From assembly GCA_036971615.1 (NCBI GenBank), contig JAYKKR010000013.1, positions 496,001-560,000 on the forward strand: a DNA stretch of 64,000 bases, in the 5' to 3' direction. Source of the DNA: Amyloporia xantha. Taxonomy: Eukaryota; Basidiomycota; Agaricomycetes; Polyporales; Adustoporiaceae. This document shows positions 36,036-50,205 of the stretch, piece after piece; position 1 is the stretch's first letter; each line of letters begins with the position of its first letter. The notes under the pieces are model-generated. The model had not been told where the DNA came from, ran no database searches, and was given only the letters and a program-made list of their open reading frames with translations. The translations under genes were made by a program, and so were the position numbers.

Positions 36036-36306
36036 GACTCGGCGATGATAGAACTTACATATTGTGTTATCAATCGCCGAAATGTATATGTCTAGTGTTG
36101 GTGCAGAACAAGTGGAAGGTGTTTTGCAAAGGAGAGCGCGAGGTGAGAAGTCGCCAATAGCACGGTCATAATCAAAATCAAAGGAATCTGAAACCCATTC
36201 TTATACTGCCCAGACGGCAACTGTAGAATACTAGTACTTTGAATCAATGGCCAACCTGTAGCTATAGCCAGTCGCCAATATTAAGTGCATAGAGACGAGG
36301 CCCGAT

Positions 36307-36361
36307 TATGCCGTTCAAAGTGTACATTAATTATTTTCCCCCGCGCGGCCATGTCGCGCGC
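36307..36361 (+). repeat. Left terminal inverted repeat of the 12.1-kb transposon
   Basis: TATGCCGTTCAAAGTGTACA followed by TAATTATTTTCCCCCGCGCG and GGCCATGTC. It matches the reverse complement of 48369-48423 with a few mismatches. The next 250 bp are rich in ACGCACGCGCACGG-type words, possible transposase-binding subterminal repeats. Confidence 0.88.
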
Positions 36362-36700
36362 CAGAATCACGTGTACGCCTCTTCGCGCACGGCGATTGTA
36401 CATGCCTTATCAACAGAGAAACTCGTTTTACAAGAAACCTCGTTTTACTTGCCCGCACGTACACACTGCGGGGACGCACGCGCGCGGGAGGTGTCGCGCA
36501 CGCACGATCCAGGAGTATCACGCACGCGCACGGCGGCAAGAACCGTGCGCACGGCGAGGGCGACATGCGCACGCACGCGCACGGTGGCCATCTGCGATCG
36601 ACGAAGGCAAACAGAACAATCAGGATACACCGTACGTCTCTTCGATGCCATCGCTCCTACGAGATACAGTGAAGCTAATAAATTTAGTAAAGGACGTATT

Positions 36701-37760
36701 CTAGACCTTCATCAAGGGATCGTCGCGCATTTCGAGCGCATAGCTTGCTTGGAGCTCAATAGCTTTGTCGATAATACGCTCCTCCTCCCCAAATGCTCCT
36801 GAGTCCATGACCAACCCCACAGCTGCCTCCCGACAGCCTACTGTCATTCCATCAAGGGTGAGCTTCATCACCTCTTCGGGCCCGCTCATGAGGCTCAGTG
36901 CGAGATATGGATCCGGATGCAATAACTGTTTGCCGATTTTCTGCAGCCATCTCTCGGACCATACGCGAATGCATTGTTTATGATTGGTACAGCCGTCACA
37001 TGCCAGGTGGTCAATTTTCGGCGGTACGATGGCGATCGTCTTTCGCAGGAGCTCAGAACTTTCCTGAACGCGCCCTATTAGATTGTGAGTCGGCCATCCT
37101 AACCACTTCCGTTCCTCATCGGTGAAATCCTTGAGAGGGGTTGAGACAAGCTGACGGAAAGCCGGTCTGACCCAATTTGGGAGATCGAACAGGCGGGCCA
37201 GTCGAAGTCGCAGTGCAGGACGAATTTGGCCTTCAATCTGTTGAAGGTAATAGATGGCCCATTTGCGTGCACTTGGAGCTCCCCACTGTGATGCTACTTT
37301 CAGCACGGCGATAAGACATTCCTGTTCATACGGTGGTTCTTTCCATCTGAAATTGATATTATTGTTAGATAAATTCAAATTGGAACAATGTGGGTATCAG
37401 ACGCACTCTCCGTAGATGTACTCAAGTAAGTACTCGAATTCCTGCACTGAAACCTGAGGTGGCCGCGTCGGGTTGGCCTCACATATCCCGTCGGACAGCT
37501 GTCCTGCTGGTAGCATGCACATATCCCCCCACAGCTCGATTCCTCTCTTCTGCATGACACTGCTGTGAAGCTTGTATAGAGTGTTTCCAACCTGGTCATT
37601 TTACAATTCAATTGTTGCTGAACTTGCTATTTCACAGATCCATTCGTTGGGACTGACTCACCTGACAAAAGTGATCGCCGTCGGGAAAATAGTAGTCTGA
37701 AGAGTGGATGGGTTCGGCTTTTGAAAGAGGTGATTCTTTGGTGTTCACATGTGGACTCAT
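36701..37760 (-). CDS. BTB/POZ-domain protein carried inside the transposon
   Basis: Three exons join cleanly: about 37760-37665 (MSPHVNTKESPLSKAEPIHS, YYFPDGDHFCQ), about 37592-37415 (VGNTLYKLHSSVMQKRG, SVQEFEYLLEYIYGE) and about 37347-36701 (WKEPPYEQECLIAVLKVASQ ... MRDDPLMKV). FPDGDHFCQVGNTLYKLHSS is the BTB core seen in Agaricomycete BTB proteins. The third exon holds an HLACDGCTNHKQCIRVWSER stretch with three Cys and two His. The frame is intact. It lies wholly between the transposon's left repeat and transposase gene, and starts 223 bp from the transposase start on the opposite strand. Its role in the element is unknown. Confidence 0.78.
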
Positions 37761-38352
37761 GGAGTAGAATATAGATGTATGGCTGTTGTTTTGGTGCAAT
37801 GAGGACAAGGGAAGTCTGATGTGAGCTCAAGGGGCTGAGACAACCGAACGCAAGAACTGACTTCGGCCGCGCCGCCGCGGCTATTTCCCGAATTGGGTAC
37901 AGTGCCTACGCCGCCTGTCTTGTTGCACCCCTGGTCGATATTGTACTCCTACGCATGCACTACTTAGCTATCCTATTGCCGACATGCTTCATCCATTCCC
38001 CCCTCTTCCACTGGCCCCAATACATGCTGCTTGGTCAGCAAATATCCGCAATGCTTCTAGGCGATTAGAAGAGGCATACCGGCGAGCGTCCCAACTGCTG
38101 CGGCTGGACGATTCTGATCCCCTCCAGCTCCGCTATCATCACGACAAACTCACCAATGACATGCTTCCTATCCTCACAGCTATGGAAATGGACATGCATG
38201 AGGACCCGCCCCTCCCATTGGCTTGGATCGAGGCTGCCGCTCTCGCTATCGGTTCACTGATCGTCAAGTTGGAGTCAACACTCCGCGAAACTGATGGAAT
38301 GTAGGTCTACAGTAACCGGCATCTTATTATAGGTGAAAGTTCATACATGTTG

Positions 38353-38656
38353 TGTTGAACGATTAGTTTCCAACTATAGTAGTCGCACTTCCATACTTGG
38401 TAGTCAGTACTTACTCATTTCTATGATGTTCTATGACGTTCCATAGTATGCTCTTGTCTTACTTCATAGGCTCCACTTTCTTACTAAGAAATCTCCACTA
38501 TGATTTCATTATGACTTCATATCTTACTCAGATATTCTATAGGTTTCTGGATACGATTACTAAGGAGCCTTTCATGCATGTATATAAGCAGGGCCTTACA
38601 GCCCACTAGAATACAAGACGGATTAGCCTCCTCTCCTCTATAGTCTGCGCTCAACA
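38353..38656 (+). repeat. Copia 5' LTR
   Basis: Starts TGTTGAACGATTAG and ends GCGCTCAACA (TG...CA). It contains TATATAAG near 38580, a likely TATA box for the element promoter. The copy at 43826-44129 is identical as read. Confidence 0.95.
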
Positions 38657-38675
38657 GGTTATGAGCCCCGCGCTC
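38657..38675 (+). other. Copia primer binding site of half-tRNA type
   Basis: GGTTATGAGCCCCGCGCTC directly follows the 5' LTR. Its complement contains GGGCTCATAACC, the anticodon loop of initiator Met tRNA. Priming by a cut initiator tRNA is known for Copia and Ty5 (hemivirus type). Confidence 0.75.
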
Positions 38676-39114
38676 TAATCTGTCTGACTACTGTGCAGTC
38701 ATCTGTCTTCACTCTTCTATTTACGCTTTCACTTTCTCTTTTGCGCATTTACCCCTTCTATTGCCTTCTTCTTATAAGGCCCCTTAGTAGACTACGTAAG
38801 TACACAGTCCTCAGTTTTGTGACGAACTCTTGGGAGTCTGCACTTCAGTGGGCGGCTCTTAGAGGTCCAAATCCTCTCCTGGGAATAAGGCACCTTACGC
38901 GAAATAGTCAAAGGCGTAACAGGGCCCTCAGGCAACTGCGAAGCAAAACTCTGCGGCTCCATAGGTAGCTGTAGATAGAAGTACTATACAGTAGCTAGCT
39001 AGGCCTTGGGCAATACCCTCTGCGGCATAGTCTCGTCTCGATCGCTCACTTCCCTCAACTCTACCCTGCGTCTTGGCTATTTCGGCTAGCTGGGACAAAG
39101 GTTCACTTCAATAA

Positions 39115-39555
39115 GTGTCCATCTTTGAGCTAGAGACGTTGACTTCTTCATCAGAAGCAGCTGATCCAGTGGCAGATCAATCTCAGTCAGGCGACTCAGA
39201 GGGATCTTCACCAGAGCCAGTACAGCTTATATCTGTCTACCCAACAGATTATAGCTGGAAATTCCCTTACGCAGGCGATTATATTGGTGGTCTTACAGAC
39301 GACGATCTTGGTTATTTCCCATACAATATTGAAAGTAACTCTCTTCGTCACACTGACAGTGAAGAGTACTTTCCAAACCTCTCCAATACATTTTGGGCTA
39401 TACTTCTTCGATCCGATCCTTTTGATCAAGAAGTTAAAGAGGTTAAACCAGATCGATCGCCTCCATCAATTCCTCAATCAATTCCATCAATTCCTCAATC
39501 ACCTTCCATCGCCTATCTCCTTCAGTCTGACACTCGCCCTGACATTTTATTCTGA
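39115..39555 (+). CDS. 146-residue acidic ORF upstream of Copia gag
   Basis: Open frame MSIFELETLTSSSEAADPVA to TRPDILF, ending 5 bases before the gag-pol start. It is acidic and Ser/Pro-rich with an ending of repeated Ser-Ile-Pro-Gln units. No family is recognised. It could be an extra element protein or leader sequence translated by chance. The first Met is at the 5' edge of a long untranslated leader. Confidence 0.45.
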   Translation: MSIFELETLTSSSEAADPVADQSQSGDSEGSSPEPVQLISVYPTDYSWKFPYAGDYIGGLTDDDLGYFPYNIESNSLRHTDSEEYFPNLSNTFWAILLRSDPFDQEVKEVKPDRSPPSIPQSIPSIPQSPSIAYLLQSDTRPDILF

Positions 39556-39560
39556 TCGCC

Positions 39561-42500
39561 ATGGATCCCTCCAAGATTCCTACCTCCACCATTCCCATTT
39601 TTGATGGCACAAACTATATTGCCTGGTCTAACGCCATGCGAGGTGTTTTTAGATGGTCTGGTTCCTGGAACATTGTTGAAGGGAATTCAGGCACACCTCT
39701 TCCTCGTCCTACTGTTGCAGCTACTGGAGAAGACCTCCCTACAATCCAGGCTGCTTGGGATGAGAAGAATGACAAGGCACTTGGTTTGATGACCATCTAT
39801 ATTTCCTCCTCGCTACAATTCCTCATTGGCAATACTACCACTGCTGCTGCAGCGTGGAAAGCAATTAAAGATCAGTATGCCAAACCTGGTGCTGTTGGTG
39901 CATTCGTCTACTTTCAACAATTATTCAATACTCGCTTTGACGATGCCCAACCTCTTCGCCCTCAGATAACAGCACTTGAGGAAATTCGTAGTCGTACCGT
40001 TGATGCTGGGATTGCCATCTCAGATCAATTTGCTGCCCTTATTATTGTCAACGCCTTGCCCAATTCTTATCAGACCATTGCTTCGACTCTGCTGGCTACA
40101 GTTACAGACCTTTCTAAACTTAAACCAGCAGATGTCATCCCCAAAATAATTGAGGAAGAAGCTAGACGTCAGGCCTCTAAAAATGCTAATGTCTCTCGTG
40201 TCTCGTCGACTACTCGTCTCCCAAAGAAATGTAATATCTGTGGGAAGACTAATCACTCGACTGAGAACCATTGGCCTGATGGAAAGCCACCTCAAAAGGG
40301 GAATAAGCAGGGCAAAGGCAAGGGCAAGCAAGGCGGTAATCAAGGAGGAAATAATAAGGGAAGTGGACAGAATCATGGTCAAAATAATGGTAATAATGGA
40401 GCTTCACAAGGACAGGGATCTGGTGCAAAAGTTAACAATCTTCTTATAGAATCTGTACCAGATGTAACGGTAGCATCTTCTTCGTCCAAATCAATTAACC
40501 TTTCCCTGTACCATGTGGGAGATGAGATCGCAAGATGGATGGTTGATTCAGGTTGCACTTCACATGTCACAAACGTCTTTGAAGATTTTGATCACTATCA
40601 TGAATTTCCAGTACCTGGTCATGCGCACTTAGCTGGCGCAGATAAGACCATAGACATCAAAGGTGTTGGAATAGTTCTTCTGAGACATCAGAATAGTGAC
40701 GGAATCATTGTCAACCTGACTCTTAAATCTGTCCTTTATATTCCTGAAGCGTCTCATCGTTTCTTTGCTCCACGCACCATTATTGACCAAGGAGGCTGCT
40801 ATAGTGCCCATGGGGACACTATGAATTTTTGGGCAGGCTCCAAACCGGGTGAGAACCTAATCCTCACTGCGCGATCAAGCCATGATGGTTCAGGTTTCTA
40901 TTGGCTTGAAACCAAAGTGTTTCATCCAAACACCCGGCCTCAGACTCTGCAATCTGTGGAAGCTGACTATGACTTGTGGCATCAACGGTTTGGTCATGCG
41001 GGACGTAACACAATTCGTCAATTGCCTAATCATGTTAATGGCGCACCAAATAGTCTTTCTTCAGCACCAAAGTCTGATCCTTGTGCTGGTTGTGCGCTTG
41101 GCAAGTCCCACAGACAACCGTTCCCACTCTCTTCTACTCGCGCATCTAAACCATTAGAACTTATTCACTCAGATCTCGTCGAAATGCCATCTTTGTCCAT
41201 TGATGGTTTCAAATATTGTGTCACATTCCTCGACGACTTCTCCTCATTTGGTGTCATGTATTACCTTAAGCGGAAATCTGATGCTCTCACCTGCTTTAAA
41301 AGTTATCGAGCATGGGGGAAACTCAGCTTTCTACGCGACTTAAGCGTTTCCGCTCTGACAGAGGAGGAGAATTTATGGGTGAAGAGTTCACACAATATTT
41401 ACATGAAAATGGTATTGAGCGCGAGGCATCTATGCCACAAAGTCCACAACAAAATGGACGTGCAGAACGTTGGCAGCAAACTATTGTAGAAAAAGCAGAA
41501 GCTATGCGTCATCATGCTGGTTTATCCACAGGCTTCTGGAAACTTGCTGTTGAAACTGCCGTTCATATTTACAATCGTCAGCCATTCCGCAGAGCACACT
41601 GGCGTACTCCCATTGAATTATGGAATGGTACTGTTCCAGATGTGTCGTACTTTAGAGTCTTTGGATGCCTAGCCTATGTACATGTTCAGAAGGAGCGACG
41701 CCAGGATAAGCTCACGGCTCGAGCTAAACCTATGGTGTTCGTCGGCTATGAACCTGGATCAAAGGGGTATCGATTCTGGGATAAAGATAGCCGCTCCATT
41801 GTTTTATCGCGTGATGCGGTATTCAATGAGAGATCCTTTCCGAACAAAAGTGCGAATCCTATTCCCGCTGCCCAACAACCGCATGAGCCGCCCGTTCCTG
41901 TAGCTCCAGCACCACAGCCGGCCCTGCCGCTTGGTGATGATGATGCTAATAGGCCTGAACCGGATGCTGACTTGCCTCCACATCCGGGACCACCACCAGA
42001 ACTGCCTAGAAACCCATCTCCTCCACCTCATCCACCTTCTCCAGATGAGCCTCCAGTACCACAACCTCCTCCATTTGTACCTAGACGCTCTACTCGGTCA
42101 ACCGCTGGTAGACCTCCACCACGGCCTGACAATGCGTATGGTGATCGTCACCCTGCAGCTATACAGCGTGACATTGATCAAGGAGGTGGTTTACCTGACG
42201 TCATGGAGAATCTCATCTCAGATCTTCCAGTAGAGTTTATTCTCAACGCCGATCCTCAGTACGGACCTTTTCCACAATCTTATCAGGAAGCGATCTCTCG
42301 CCCTGATCAGACTCAGTGGGAGGCCGCTATGCAGGAAGAGATAGACTCTCAAATGGAGAATGGTACATGGGAGTTAGTAGACTTACCTCCTGGACGTAAG
42401 GCAGTACCTTGTCGTTGGGTTTACACTATTAAACCTGGTGGTAGATATAAAGCTCGGCTTGTAGCCAAAGGCTTTAAACAGGTCAAAGGCATCGATTATG

Positions 42501-43799
42501 ATGAAATATTCTCCCCTGTCGCTCGTTTTGAATCTATAAGATTCTTACTTGCCCATGCTGCTCTTAATGATTGGGAGGTAGAGGCTATGGATGTAAAGAC
42601 AGCATTCTTATATGGCGAATTAGACGAGGAGATATATATGGAGCAACCAGAAGGCTTTAAAGTCCCTGGTCAGGAACACAAAGTTTGTCATCTTTTGAAG
42701 GCTATTTATGGTCTTAAACAGGCTGGCAGACAGTGGAATAAAAACTCCACAATGCGTTGTTGGAATTAGGGTTCACACGTACATATTCTGATGCGGGTAT
42801 TTATGTGTATCGTCATCATGGGGGGATTTAATACTTGTCGTATATGTTGACGATCTATTGCCAATTGGATCTGATCGGCGTCAGATTGCATGGCTTAAAG
42901 GTTGTCTTCAGAAGCGATTTAATGTTCGTGACCTTGGGCCTGTAGAATCTTTTCTAGGCATGCGGATTACTCGAGATAGATCATCCAGAAACATTTGGCT
43001 TGATCAGTCTAAATACATTGAAGAGACACTCGAGCGATTCCAAATGCTAGATGCAGCACCCACACGAACTCCCCTTCCATTTGGCGTACACCTTGTCAAA
43101 GCAGATCCTTCATATGAAGTTGATGCCGCCCTTCGTTCAAAGTACCAGCAGCTCATTGGTTCACTTTTGTGGATCGCCTTAGGCACTCGTCCAGATATAG
43201 CCTATGCAGTTAATCGCCTTTCCCAATATTCTGCTAAGCCTACAATGCAACATTATAAAGCCGCACAATATATTCTTCGCTATTTGAACGGTTCACGTTC
43301 ACTTCGGCTTTGCTACAAAGGCAGCGGATTATCTGGACTCATAGGTTATTCTGACTCTGATTGGGCTGAGAACAAGGACGATAGGCATTCAACTAGTGGC
43401 TTTGTCTTCTTTATGGCAGATGCTGCTATTTCATGGGTCTCGCGGCGACAAAAGACTGTTGCTCTGTCTTCTACAGAAGCAGAGTACATGGCGTTGTCCG
43501 ACTCTTGTCGACAATTAGCCTGGCTTCGGACTCTTCAGTCTGAGATTGGTTTTAAGCCACAAAATGCCACACCTTTATGCATTGATAATAATGGTAGCAT
43601 TTTTCTTGCGGTTAATCCAGCTCATGACAGAAGAACCAAGCACATTGATATACGGTACCACTTTTGCAGAGAGTTCATTGAAAACGGTCATGTCGGTCTT
43701 TTCTTTGTACCTACTGCTGAGCAAAGGGCCGATATCCTCACTAAGAATTTATCTTTCTCTATTCATGAGAAATTTGTACATAGTCTTGGACTAAAGTAG
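39561..43799 (+). pseudogene. Copia Gag-Pol polyprotein with three single-base frame breaks
   Basis: Starts MDPSKIPTSTIPIFDGTNYI. Gag is followed by a zinc knuckle CNICGKTNHSTENHW (about 40228; the last ligand is His, not Cys). Then come protease DSGCTSH (about 40545), the integrase zinc region WHQRFGHAGRN and core (IHSDLVEM, DRGGEF), RT (KARLVAKGFKQVKGIDYDEI, YGLKQAGRQWN, YVDDLL) and RNase H (SDSDWAENKDDRHSTSGF, SSTEAEYMALSD, KHIDIRYHFCRE). The frame breaks at G5 (41314-41318), A5 (42740-42744) and G6 (42820-42825), each consistent with one missing base. All domains are otherwise preserved. Confidence 0.9.
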
Positions 43800-43825
43800 T
43801 TAGCGACTATCTAGTTGAGTGGGAG

Positions 43826-44129
43826 TGTTGAACGATTAGTTTCCAACTATAGTAGTCGCACTTCCATACTTGGTAGTCAGTACTTACTCATTTCTATGAT
43901 GTTCTATGACGTTCCATAGTATGCTCTTGTCTTACTTCATAGGCTCCACTTTCTTACTAAGAAATCTCCACTATGATTTCATTATGACTTCATATCTTAC
44001 TCAGATATTCTATAGGTTTCTGGATACGATTACTAAGGAGCCTTTCATGCATGTATATAAGCAGGGCCTTACAGCCCACTAGAATACAAGACGGATTAGC
44101 CTCCTCTCCTCTATAGTCTGCGCTCAACA
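43826..44129 (+). repeat. Copia 3' LTR
   Basis: Identical to the 5' LTR. It is preceded by the purine tract GAGTGGGAG (43817-43825), the likely polypurine tract for plus-strand priming. Confidence 0.95.
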
Positions 44130-44616
44130 TGTTGCCCTTCAGAGATCGCTCCAATGCTGTAGACATTGCGCCGGTAACTATCGAATACAGCCGCCATGCT
44201 GGTCGCCCTCACAAACACATTGACCGGGCCTACCTGACCGAAATCATGTCACCCAGCCGCAATATCTCAATATCAAACTTAGCCAAGATCTTGGGAATTC
44301 ACCGCCATACTGTGCGAAAGGAACTTCGTGCATATGGGCTGAGGAGGGACTATTCCCCGATATCTGACGCCGATCTCGATCTCATTATCCGTGCATACAA
44401 GGAGCGAAAGCCCGAATCTGGAATCCGGTACTTGATTGCGACCCTGCGTCGACATGGCTTGCGCATTCAGAAGACACGCATCTACCAGTCCTTGGGCCGG
44501 GTGGATGGCCTCGGCCGTGCTCTACGACAGCGGCATACAATACAGCGCAGAAAATACCATTCATCGCGCCCGAATGCACTCTGGCATTGCGATGGCCACC
44601 ACAAGCTCATCCACTG

Positions 44617-44834
44617 TTAGAGTAGACGCTCGCGCGCTAAGCGCCGTAGTACAAACATGTACATACACGGCCAGCGCGATCTGCGACGGCCTCCTTCGTA
44701 TACATTGCTTGCTTCTGCGACTTCTGTGAGCCTTAGGTGTCGGTGTCGGTGTCTGTGCCCTCTCGTGTCCTCTCGCTTCTCATCTCTGGGCTCTCTCAGA
44801 TCACATCTTCCATTCATTCTGCTGACATCCACTG
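44617..44834. mobile_element. 218-bp insertion with 9-bp flanking duplication in the transposase gene
   Basis: CATCCACTG occurs at 44608-44616 and again at 44826-44834. Leaving out the 218 bp between restores the reading WHCDGHHKLIHWGIVIHG. The segment has no acceptor AG near its end, so it is not an intron. Terminal repeats are weak (TTAGAG... / ...CTGCTGA), so the class is unclear; a small non-autonomous element is likely. Confidence 0.65.
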
Positions 44835-46229
44835 GGGTATTGTCATTCATGGATTCATAGATGGTTTCTGTAGAACTGTACGTCTTAGTGTGAAGTTATC
44901 ATTATGTCGGCGAAACTGAGTCTCAACTTGAACAACTGAATGTGGCGATTGCTGGCAGGTCACTGGATTGCAAGCAAGCAACAACAATCTTGCCTCCACA
45001 GTGTTGGATGTATTCCTCAGTGCGACGGAGACATATGGAATACCATCCCATGTGTGTGGTGACCGAGGAGGCGAGAACATTGATGTCTCTGTATGGATGA
45101 TTTTACGGTGTGGTCCAAACAGAGCATCATTTATGTGGGGCAGGTATGTCTGGCCACAGCTTTCAAATAAGAATATCCATTGAATCATGTATAGCTCTAC
45201 TCGAAATACGCGAATAGAGCGACTCTGGGTCGAAGTCGGGCGCCAATTCTGCCGCGAGTGGCGAGCTTTCTTCACTCGTCTTGAGCGATGCCATTTTCTT
45301 GACCGCTCGAGTGCAACACACCTCTGGCTGTTACAGCGTCTGTTTCTCCATGTCATAAATGAAGATTGTCTATCTTTCCAAGCGGACTGGAACGCTCATC
45401 CGATTTCGGGTCCCGATACCAATGACCGAAGCCCACAGGCAAGTCGAGTCTGATGTATCCACATTCCCGCTCTTGCAGATGGCTGAGTAATGCTGTAGGA
45501 CTTACGAATCATTGGCCAAACTACCAATGGAATATATACTGATGATCCGGATGGTAACAACATTGATCCTGATTTATTACACCGATATTATGGTACTACA
45601 GGAGGAAGGGCCCCTCCTCGGCGACAGGGGCACACAGGTGCTGGTCATCCTCCTGAAGAGGAATCTGATGTTGAAGAAGACAATGACGAGATTAATATGG
45701 AAGGACTGCCAGGACAAATCGCTGAATATGAGCAACATCATGTGCGGCACGATCCTATACCAGTCCCAGATCACGCAAGTCCCTTCGTCAACGCCGAGGC
45801 AGAGGAAATGTTTTTCACTGCTCTTGGTATGTTGCAGGATGGTGGAGAATTACCAGAAGGATATGGTCTGATGCCTTATGAGCAAGTTCAGGGTTATGAG
45901 GCAGTCGAGGTCATTCGCTCAGGCCGGCGAAACCGCAAAGAGCTTATTGTGACATTACCGGAACATATTTGGCGGCCACGTACCGAGTACTGGGGCCGCG
46001 CATTATATCTTCTGACCCACATGTTATTAGAATAGGTATATATAGAATGTAGTTTGACAATATGACAGTCTCCTCGCTAGCGCATTGGAGACATAGCCTG
46101 AGTGAAATCCCTCGTATCGCCCGCTCGATTAGTCAGCATGACCTGCAGCATTCAGCATTACGGCGAAATTTGCTCCTTCTCTATCGCTTCGCTTCTCGCA
46201 TCCTCACCTCTCGCATCCTCACCTCTCGC

Positions 46230-47914
46230 ATGGCTTCGAGTTCAGTCAGTGGCCTTTCACCTGGACACTGCACAGCCCTCAATGAATCAACTGCAAAGCC
46301 ATGTATATGCAAGACGTACCAAGAGGGTATTGTCGTCGCTGGCCAACCTGTGGTATGTCGCGAGTGCGGTCATGGCCTGTCGAACCACGATGGAGTCAGG
46401 TCTTATCCTGGCAAAATAAACGAGATCATGCTCGCACTCAAAGCGAATACAGCAAAGATTCAGGATGCCCGTGCTGAGACACTGAAGCACTTTCGGGTTT
46501 CAGCCAACCATAGTGACTCCGATAGTGGTAGCAAGAAAAAGGCCCACACCGTGGCCCAGTGAAAGTGAGTCCAGCTGTCTTAATACATGGGAGGAACATG
46601 GAGCTCAGATGCGATCTTAGAAGCCGAAGAGGGGCAGAAAAAGCAACTCGACAGGGGACCCAACTCTCGTCAAAATCTATTCAATTGTTGTGATTCCTGT
46701 CGGACTCGATGTAAGTAATTCATTTGGATGGTAAAGGTATCACCGACATACCTACAGTCGCCTCATTTGTAGGATGATGGAAATCTTTTTGACCACATTG
46801 CACCCGACAAGCCTGCTTTGCGAGAACTTCGAGACAGTGGATTGGGTGTTACAGACAAGATGGATGGCACCGAACTAGCATTTTCGGAGACATGGGGGCC
46901 TGCAGAAATGCATGCATATATTCGGAAGCACCTCCCGCAGCTATTCAAGTATCTTGCCCGAGAACATCCCTGGATAATGACAGTTGGCGATGGCGATGAC
47001 AAGATGATCAAGATGAAGACATTACCTTATGTTCTACTCTTCAAAAAACAGAACTCCCTGCGGGTAATCGGGGCAATATCGCATCCGACAGGTGAAGATT
47101 ATCGTGAATTCAAAGGGCGCGATGCTGCCTCTTGGAAAGATTCTCATATCTTTATTGGTTCGCAATCATTCAGGATACAGGATGATTGAACTAACATTGT
47201 CCCTCCTATGTAAAGGGACTCGCAAGACAATTCCGCCAGCCGTGTATCAAAACTGGGACCAAAACGACTCCATATTCGGGTCTGATGCCGAGAGCATCAA
47301 TTCAGCACTGCTTCATGAACAGTCTCCAGCTGTCGCAGACAAAGGAAAGGGAAAAGCGATTGACTACCCTAAAGGTACGCTGTGCAACAGCAACCAGAGG
47401 CTGTCAGCTCAACCACATTAGCTGCAGTGACAACAGCAGCTAGGCCGGTGAAGCGTCGCTTCCCTAGCATCTCCGAAGATGGCACAACCGACGAAGAAAT
47501 CATGGCTGGGCCATTGGTTGCGAGTCCACGCAAACCAATGCCAAAAAATCCAAGCTCTTAGCCGAGTTCGATAGAGGTGAGTGGGTGGCATCGCACACTT
47601 GGGTATCAACTGATCACCACCACCTGATACTAGTAGTCGACTTAACGGCACTGCCAGGGCCATCAAGTGCAGTGCCTCAGCAAGAAGCTGCAGCGGTACA
47701 CGGACCAGCAGAAGAATCCAGGCCTGCAACCACACATGTCGACATTGATCTCAGTGAAATTCCCGATAGCGACACTGAAGCAGAACATCAGCGGGCAGCG
47801 ACACCTGTCAGAAGTAACGGCCAGGCAGCCGATTCTTTCAGCAGTCCTGGGGACACATTCGCATCTGTACCAGACCTGTGGCGAGCAGGAGGAAACAACA
47901 ATTTAGACTTTTAA
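46230..47914 (+). CDS. Second transposon gene, Cys-cluster protein of unknown function
   Basis: Start at 46230 (MASSSVSGLSPGHCTALNES); an in-frame ATG at 46062 would add 56 residues. The N-terminus has CTALNESTAKPCICKTYQEG and VVCRECGHGLSNHDG, a Cys cluster that could bind zinc. Later exons give TLVKIYSIVVIPVGLD, NLFDHIAPDKPALRELRDSG, YIRKHLPQLFKYLAREHPWI and TLPYVLLFKKQNSLRVIGAI. Then TRKTIPPAVYQNWD and an acidic, disordered C-terminus with VDIDLSEIPDSDTEAE follow. One frame break is seen at an A6 run (47543-47548). The gene lies inside the transposon's right repeat and follows the transposase gene on the same strand. I do not recognise the family; a role with the transposase is inference. 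Confidence 0.6.
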
Positions 47915-48368
47915 CTCGCACATCAGTGGATAGCAGAGGCATACCTTAATGCTGTCGTACCACCACTATAACTGTAACCAATCTATCATAGTTCTGGCAC
48001 ATTCCAAATGAAATGCAGTGGCGAACCACACAGCTTGCAGTAATGTCGGTAAGATGGAGAATGTGTACGCAACCAGCGGCTGTTGCTCCCACCCTGCTCA
48101 GCATAAGGAAGGCCATCCATGGCCAGAGAGTAACAACAAGCGAACCAGTTGACTGCATTACTTTGCGTGTGCATCGTCCGACTAGGCCAGGGCGGCACAC
48201 GATCGCAGTTCATGCAAGTACAACCAGTCGTTTTGCTGCTCTCTGCGGCGGAGGCTGAGATAAGTGGCAGGCGACGGGGGGAGGGACTTGCCAGCACAGC
48301 GACTCCGTGTGGCTGAGCAAGCACGTGATTCTCGGATGACCCCGGATGGGCGCTAATATGGCGTGCGT

Positions 48369-48423
48369 GCGCGTGACATGGCCGCGCGGGGGAAAATAAT
48401 TATTGTACACTTTGAACGGCATA
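48369..48423 (-). repeat. Right terminal inverted repeat of the 12.1-kb transposon
   Basis: Inverted copy of the left end, followed directly by the CCCGAT target duplication at 48424-48429. Just inside it GTGCGTGCGCG-type words recur, as at the left end but over a shorter stretch. Confidence 0.88.
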
Positions 48424-48454
48424 CCCGATAAAATAAAGGTCACATCTCTCTATA

Positions 48455-50205
48455 CTATGCCTGACCATCACCTCGACCTCACGTGCACCCAGGCTAATTA
48501 GCCCGGCATACCCCCCCGGGATTGCCGGGCTAGCTAGCCTCGAAAGTCAAATACCCTGTAGTTGCCAATAAAGCGAGCAGTAAAGGCGGGCTTGCCTAAT
48601 ACAATAAGTCCCCTTATCTCCCTAGATATCACCGGCATCGCTGATCACGATGAGTACACCGTGCGTCCAGCGCCAGATCACCGAACGCATCGGGATCTCC
48701 CGTGTGACGCGGCGCGCCTGCGCGCCCAATGCGTCGGCGCCGCCGCAAACGATGAGCACGAGAATTGGCTCTCACTCCGTCAATATATTGTGTATTCAGT
48801 TCGAAATTTCACTGATAGTAATAGGATTGTTTTGGATTATATATGTAATGTATGAATGAATACTTTGACACTCAAATGGAAGGATTTTGATTAATTTCTC
48901 TCAAATAGACAATTATCACCCTCCCTGGCTGGCAGTATTATCAATGAGCTCATAAGGCACCACATTTCATGTACTACAGTGCTCTGCTTAATGCTATTTG
49001 GCACCTGTCTATTTGTGAAACTTGATTAGTTTGGGTACATTCAGTCAAATATTGCTATTTCACACTTTCTATATTTCATGTACCTTCTGGTGCCTCAGAT
49101 ATTGATATGCAAAGAGATTAATGTTTTATATAGGTAATATTTGTTTGTGGTACTGTAAGACGACAGGGGATAGAAGACACCGAAAGCAACAGCACCTCGT
49201 TCGGCGAACCGCCGTCCAGCCAATCAGGATGCGCGCTTGCCTAGTGATCGAGTTGAGTGCAAATATGCACGCCACTGTAACCTTCGGGTCCATTTTGCGC
49301 ACTGCATAAGCAATCATGCACTGCTCTCTATACAGCTTGGTAGATAAATACATAGTATACATAGAATTATTTGTGCTAGAACTTCTTTGCTCAATCTCCC
49401 TCTATGTATTGAAATATGTGTGTTACATACACTGTGGCATATATTAGATTTGTTAGAATACCTTTGTATGGGGACTATGTAGAAACAAGTATGTCCACAA
49501 ATATACTTCAAATACACTCAATAAGGCATAGGAGATAGTCAATCAATTAAAGCTCAGTTCACAGTGAGCACAACAGCTTCAGCCCCATTGCAAAATAAAT
49601 TACATTCTATTCCTTCCATTTGAGCCTCAAAGTATTCACTTATACATGGCATATATAACTCAAAACAATCCTATTCCTATCAGTGAAATTTCGAACTAAA
49701 TACACAATATATTGTGAAGCTAGAGCCAATTCTCGTGCTCATCGTTTGCGGCGGCGCCGACGCATTGGGCGCGCAGGCGCGCCGCGTCACACGGGAGATC
49801 CCGATGCGTTCGGTGATCTGGCGCTGGACGCACGGTGTACTCATCGTGATCAGCGATGCCGGTGATATCTAGGGAGATAAGGGGACTTATTGTATTAGGC
49901 AAGCCCGCCTTTACTGCTCGCTTTATTGGCAACTACAGGGTATTTGACTTTTGAGGCTAGCTAGCCCGGCAATCCCGGGGGGGTATGCCGGGCTAATTAG
50001 CCTGGGTGCACGTGAGGTCGAGGTGCTGACCATGCACTGCACATGTCGGCACCTTCCTAATAGAGTAAATTTGGGGCCCAAAACCGCTCTCTTTCGGTGG
50101 GAAAATAACGAACTTCGGCACGAAAGTTTGAAATCTAGCCTGCTGATTGGCTACAGGTCACGCCTGCCGACATGGGGGGTCTGCAGAGTGCATGGTTAGG
50201 CATAG
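48455..50205. mobile_element. Small inverted-repeat element split by a nested insertion
   Basis: The ends are CTATGCCTGACCATGCACT (continued across the insertion) and its inverted copy AGTGCATGGTTAGGCATAG, with TA on both sides (48453-48454 and 50206-50207). Without the 1557-bp nested element and its duplication it is about 186 bp. It fits a Tc1/mariner-type MITE. Confidence 0.7.
48469..50025. mobile_element. 1557-bp inverted-repeat element with 8-bp target duplication
   Basis: Arms of about 415 bp (48469-48885 and 49611-50025) are inverted copies that start CACCTCGACCTCACGTGCAC and diverge toward the middle. The duplication CTGACCAT flanks it (48461-48468 and 50026-50033). Each arm tip also holds palindromic words (AGGCTAATTAGCC). 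The AT-rich interior codes for nothing recognisable. An 8-bp duplication suggests a hAT-like or other 8-bp-TSD family. Confidence 0.85.

Follow-up and report, generated by a model that had tools for sequence, protein, structure and literature searches.

The genome stretch analyzed here (the window: 64,000 nucleotides of Amyloporia xantha contig JAYKKR010000013.1, positions 496,001 to 560,000, or C5:496001–560000) contains a transposable element of 12.1 kb at window positions 36307–48423. The element is bounded by two 55-nt terminal inverted repeats (TIRs) that are 96% complementary, the left starting TATGCCG (36307–36361, + strand) and the right ending CGGCATA (48369–48423, − strand). Directly outside both lies the unstranded target site duplication CCCGAT (36301–36306 and 48424–48429). 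An earlier sequence-only reading of this DNA had described inverted ends of about 55 bp and a CCCGAT duplication on both sides, and each was found to abut as described. Within these borders lie an interrupted DDE transposase gene (37984–46032, +), a BTB-domain gene on the opposite strand (36704–37760, −), an unrecognised gene downstream (gene 2; 46230–47914, +) and two nested insertions, a Copia retrotransposon (38353–44129, +) and a 213-bp solo long terminal repeat (LTR; 44615–44827, +).

The genome (46.8 Mb, 60 contigs) was searched with the left end, which gave 7 matches at E 8e-19 or better (all seven candidates scored). These resolve into three convergent pairs and one single end, and such pairing argues that the inverted ends are not due to chance. 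Besides the window copy, the pairs delimit full copies of 21.5 kb (C20:127811–149290) and 25.6 kb (C25:178608–204235). Exact 6-bp duplications flank all three pairs and all differ (CCCGAT on C5, AAATAC on C20 and CCCGCT on C25); copies with differing duplications, named in the sequence-only reading as a check, are therefore present. Sequence identity of the window with the C20 and C25 copies stops at the inverted repeats. The single end, at C14:585325, belongs to a truncated copy that breaks off at the position equivalent to window 45342; its remainder (C14:585325–588390) is 92% identical to window 45342–48423 across 3.1 kb.

The transposase gene is predicted to comprise exons at about 37984–38300, 44143–44614 plus 44828–44876, 44959–45143 and 45195–46032. 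Its product was modeled over 417 residues, taken from the C20 copy as far as the insertion in that copy, and matches PF24764 (rva_4) with E 8.5e-56; rve falls narrowly below the Pfam cut-off. A DDE transposase with D-D-E residues, as previously proposed, is borne out by this match and by a conserved triad of D256, D313 and E348 (numbering of the C20-derived model; 34 residues between the second D and E). Among the best 120 of 599 homologues, these residues are retained in 116/116, 111/113 and 95/97, respectively, of the rows with a letter at that position. The accompanying helix-turn-helix (HTH) is seen only as sub-cut-off Pfam matches (HTH_23, 18.5 versus 24.6 bits), and a Pfam scan, with no dedicated motif search for the HHCC zinc domain whose absence ahead of the core marks IS3EU, gave no zinc-binding integrase domain. 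The closest relative among those 120 is from Pleurotus djamor (55%); nearly all of the named organisms are fungi of the Agaricomycetes, and one row labeled Salix suchowensis perhaps reflects contamination. A sequence search of PDB with the transposase returned no match. AlphaFold modeling of the Pleurotus djamor homologue (50 sequences; predicted local distance difference test (pLDDT) 86.9) gave a fold resembling Mu transposase, retroviral integrases/intasomes and TnsB, with nine matches at E 0.001 or better (best 1.7e-4). Between the window and C14, the stretch 45499–46032 shows a nonsynonymous distance (dN) of 0.042 and a synonymous distance (dS) of 0.324; the C-terminal part of the transposase is under constraint.

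The sequence-only reading had called the element large and had overlooked that its transposase is interrupted by the Copia and the solo LTR. The 12.1-kb span is real but mostly the product of nesting: about half of it is later Copia and solo-LTR DNA, and comparison of copies gives a native element of ~6.1 kb. The Copia (5.8 kb; identical 304-nt LTRs, duplication TGTTG, Retrotran_gag_2 and RVT_2 domains) sits within what is predicted to be intron 1 of the transposase gene, and the solo LTR (duplication TCCAC), which is missing from the C20 and C25 copies, splits the exon bearing the first catalytic D. The solo LTR belongs to a family with at least 40 genomic matches (40 scored of 69 candidates), including six pairs ~1.4 kb apart, and appears to derive from a short LTR element of ~1.6 kb with an LTR of ~210 bp. 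The C20 copy lacks both insertions and is uninterrupted at those places; it carries instead a Copia of its own (C20:140682–146465, duplication GGAGG, LTRs identical over 304 nt) and an insertion of 9.57 kb whose ends read CATCAGG..CCTGATG. Since each LTR pair is identical over 304 nt, the window and C20 Copia insertions are recent. The C25 copy holds insertions of 1.46 kb and 18.06 kb with ends of the same CATCAGG..CCTGATG kind. These three nested elements are PlavakaB-like, with ends CATCAGGAAAAA; both longer insertions (9.57 and 18.06 kb) have open frames with a match to the Plavaka transposase PF18759 (Pfam), and the 1.46-kb insertion was assigned from its ends alone. A published account gives PlavakaB duplications of 2 or 3 bp and CATCA..TGATG ends (PMC12730594). 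With the transposase disrupted in three copies and the fourth, on C14, lacking the front part of the gene, every transposase gene of this family found in the genome is interrupted or incomplete, and the family looks incapable of moving by itself in this assembly.

Taken together, TA..TA ends, 6-bp duplications and an rva_4/rve DDE enzyme make it very probable that the element belongs to the IS3EU superfamily of cut-and-paste DNA transposons, a placement made by ends, duplications and enzyme type; it was ~6.1 kb long before the later insertions. Starship giant elements, which have a tyrosine-recombinase captain, were ruled out by the DDE transposase found here. IS3EU/GingerRoot elements have TA..TA termini, usually 6-bp target site duplications and an integrase-like core (PMC10045372). 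All of these recur here: TATGCC..GGCATA termini in the three full copies, with the same sequence at the sole surviving C14 end; the three 6-bp duplications given above; and a transposase with PF24764, the D-D-E residues and the integrase-like fold modeled for its homologue. Zisupton (KDZ), with 8-bp duplications (PMC12730594), was rejected on the 6-bp length here. The description of an IS3EU-like transposon with two genes of its own and a BTB gene thus gains support from three copies, three duplications, the TA..TA ends and the rva_4/rve enzyme.

The further statement of the sequence-only reading, that such proteins are rarely shown with defined element ends, is only partly right, for ends have been published for the TET/JBP-bearing IS3EU families of rusts and Tuber indicum (PMC12730594) and for Styx of Zymoseptoria (PMC10853768). 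The rust and Tuber families share with the present element 6-bp duplications, TIRs of more than 30 bp, a DDE transposase and passenger genes alongside. They differ in their passengers, TET/JBP dioxygenase and alpha-kinase as opposed to BTB and an unrecognised gene, and the rust ends read TAYGG..CCRTA, not TATGCC..GGCATA (PMC12730594); membership in the TET-bearing rust group was rejected on the end TATGC. Pfam showed neither TET/JBP nor alpha-kinase in the transposase pieces or in the models of BTB and gene 2. Styx is likewise IS3EU-derived, with 6-bp duplications and several genes (7,927 bp, four genes, 36-bp TIR), but its other genes encode GATA, CCHC and DUF3577 domains; it has many copies, some active, and its authors reportedly found none outside the genus (PMC10853768). 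IS3EU elements also feature among the repeats tabulated for Ganoderma, Phlebopus and Colletotrichum lupini (PMC8955403, PMC12411881, PMC11645255). Because multi-gene IS3EU elements have been published for rusts, a truffle and Zymoseptoria, the present element represents a new family within a known superfamily, distinguished by its passengers, rather than a new kind of element. Searches of the literature with partial coverage met no BTB-carrying IS3EU element, no IS3EU element with gene 2 as passenger, and no giant cargo-carrying transposable element with a transposase in Basidiomycota.

Gene 2 and the divergent BTB gene are both present in the three full copies. The BTB gene noted by the sequence-only reading (311-aa model; exons 37760–37662, 37591–37403 and ~37348–36704) was confirmed through a relative: it is 29% identical (E 9e-17) to another gene on C5 whose Pfam BTB score clears the cut-off (E 3.5e-7). 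Outside the full copies, the genome holds two weak relatives of its third exon (E 2e-5 and 3e-4), and PDB gave no sequence match to the model. The BTB exons of the window are 99.4–100% identical, without gaps, to those of both other full copies; in all three, the first 266 residues are stop-free and the third exon reads open to its end. A 223-bp stretch (37761–37983) separates the start codons of these two genes, BTB and transposase, which lie head to head, and is a candidate promoter that both may share.

Gene 2, likewise anticipated as a second unrecognised gene on the transposase strand, has six predicted exons and a 464-aa model, taken from the C20 copy, with no Pfam match. Relative to C20, the window gene has two one-base frame breaks, of which C25 shares one, in the first exon. 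Its exon 3 is present only in the four copies of the window element (4/4 candidates in the genome), and its N-terminal 110 residues used as query scored nothing (3 candidates). The three full copies have too few mutual differences to judge selection. In the comparison of the window with C14, exons 1–6 gave dN of 0.051, 0.038, 0.025, 0.033, 0.059 and 0.030 and dS of 0.256, 0.270, 0.132, 0.091, 0.151 and 0.170 (exon 5 counted only as far as a gap). All six exons thus have dN below dS between the two lineages, which shows that gene 2 is under purifying selection. Divergence of C14 from the window is ~10% in the transposase part and drops to very little near the right end; this gradient, like the uneven silent distances along C14, hints at sequence exchange between copies.

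The other rva_4 genes found in the genome, on C3, C12 and C59, lie in one 21.6-kb unit, with copies at C12:1716455–1738028, C3:790963–812569 (−) and C59:689460–711064 (−). These are 99.7–99.8% identical where compared (11.7 kb in all three, 5 kb more in C3 versus C12), and each has its own 6-bp duplication (TCACTG, GAAATA and CGGAGC). The genome holds two IS3EU-like families, each with three end-to-end copies bearing different duplications. The ends of the second, TTTGATGGGCCATATTGGACAAAT and, inward from the far side, TATGAAGGCCCTTATTGGACAAAA, are alike at 21/28 ungapped positions and form imperfect inverted ends; the left one starts TT, not TA, and departs from the IS3EU rule. A 68-nt genome query with this left end recovered the three copies and one 85% match on C13 and no inverted partner. 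The transposase is open in a spliced model over its first 374 residues (PF24764, E 6.7e-59). Ten frames, one of them the transposase end, had no Pfam match over cut-off, and a PDB search with one open reading frame returned three matches, all at E 0.71 or weaker. One frame occurs in the three copies only; another, of 343 aa, carries stops in the C59 copy and has 42–43% relatives on C16, C37 and C24. The matches at C16:574747 and C37:35731 have equal scores (42%) and perhaps represent another repeated element. A scan of 16.7 kb of the C12 copy for direct repeats next to perfect inverted ends of 12 nt recognised no nested element, though one could escape this criterion.

These findings lead us to propose, tentatively and at slightly less than even confidence, that Agaricomycete IS3EU elements are multi-gene cargo elements that reach at least 21.6 kb and move as units, and that their cargo (BTB, gene 2 and, in the 21.6-kb family, the unplaced genes) is kept because it helps the element, e.g., against silencing. 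A rival to which we give somewhat less than even credence is that neither the BTB gene nor gene 2 does anything for the element, both having been picked up by chance on a single occasion. In its favour, the BTB copies are too similar to reveal selection and the window's gene 2 carries frame breaks; on the other hand, gene 2 has dN below dS in every exon, and all three full copies have an open BTB frame beside an interrupted transposase. It is improbable that the host keeps the copies for BTB or gene 2 and that inactivation of the transposase was selected. All six recognised nested insertions across the three full copies do lie in the transposase gene, which makes up 34% of the native length, and uniform insertion would give 0.336^6 = 0.0014, a post hoc figure from few events with introns included in the gene span. 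An insertion bias toward the transposase region explains this pattern equally well, and the frame breaks of gene 2 in the window and, in the first exon, in C25 also speak against host retention. That the whole is a segmental duplication or composite repeat, its ends unrelated dispersed sequences and its DDE gene a Copia integrase, is extremely improbable: a Copia with its own integrase does sit inside the element and the right flank is another repeat, but the Copia LTRs do not enclose the DDE gene, whose match is to rva_4, and identity with C20 and C25 ends at inverted repeats, each with a different duplication. The sequence-only reading had named unrelated dispersed repeats, or the lack of any copy with matching ends, as grounds for abandoning it, and neither was observed.

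Several observations weigh against the reading as an IS3EU transposon that carries BTB and gene 2. Empty sites, which the sequence-only reading had hoped for, did not appear in this genome, where none of 28 matches of the joined window flanks crosses the junction. The splice sites of the gene models were set by judgement, and the BTB model itself stays below the Pfam cut-off (BTB, 13.6 versus 20.5 bits). For gene 2, a single relative was found among the matches listed (7,996 candidates; Grifola frondosa A0H81_04733, 33%, E 1.7e-27), AlphaFold gave no usable fold for exon 3 (five sequences, pLDDT 36.9), and per-exon counts are small, with, e.g., 3 silent and 4 replacement changes in exon 4.

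Under the proposed IS3EU mechanism, the HTH-like N-terminal part of the transposase would bind the 55-bp ends, and the integrase-like DDE core would cut at the TA ends and insert them into target DNA at a 6-bp staggered cut, whose fill-in would leave the 6-bp duplication. The BTB gene stands head to head with the transposase gene, and gene 2 lies downstream. This chemistry is inferred, as is any benefit that the element draws from BTB or gene 2. The element ties unnamed mushroom 'integrase core' proteins to a complete unit whose ends, duplications and genes are defined, which allows genes of this sort to be annotated as transposons. It also extends the passengers known in fungal IS3EU elements by BTB and an unrecognised gene, whose service to the element is now testable, and its 21.6-kb relative suggests that IS3EU can carry large loads in mushrooms.

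Adjoining the element, a further repeat occupies about 48460–50036 of the window, with inverted ends of at least ~160 bp set ~1.5 kb apart and many copies elsewhere.

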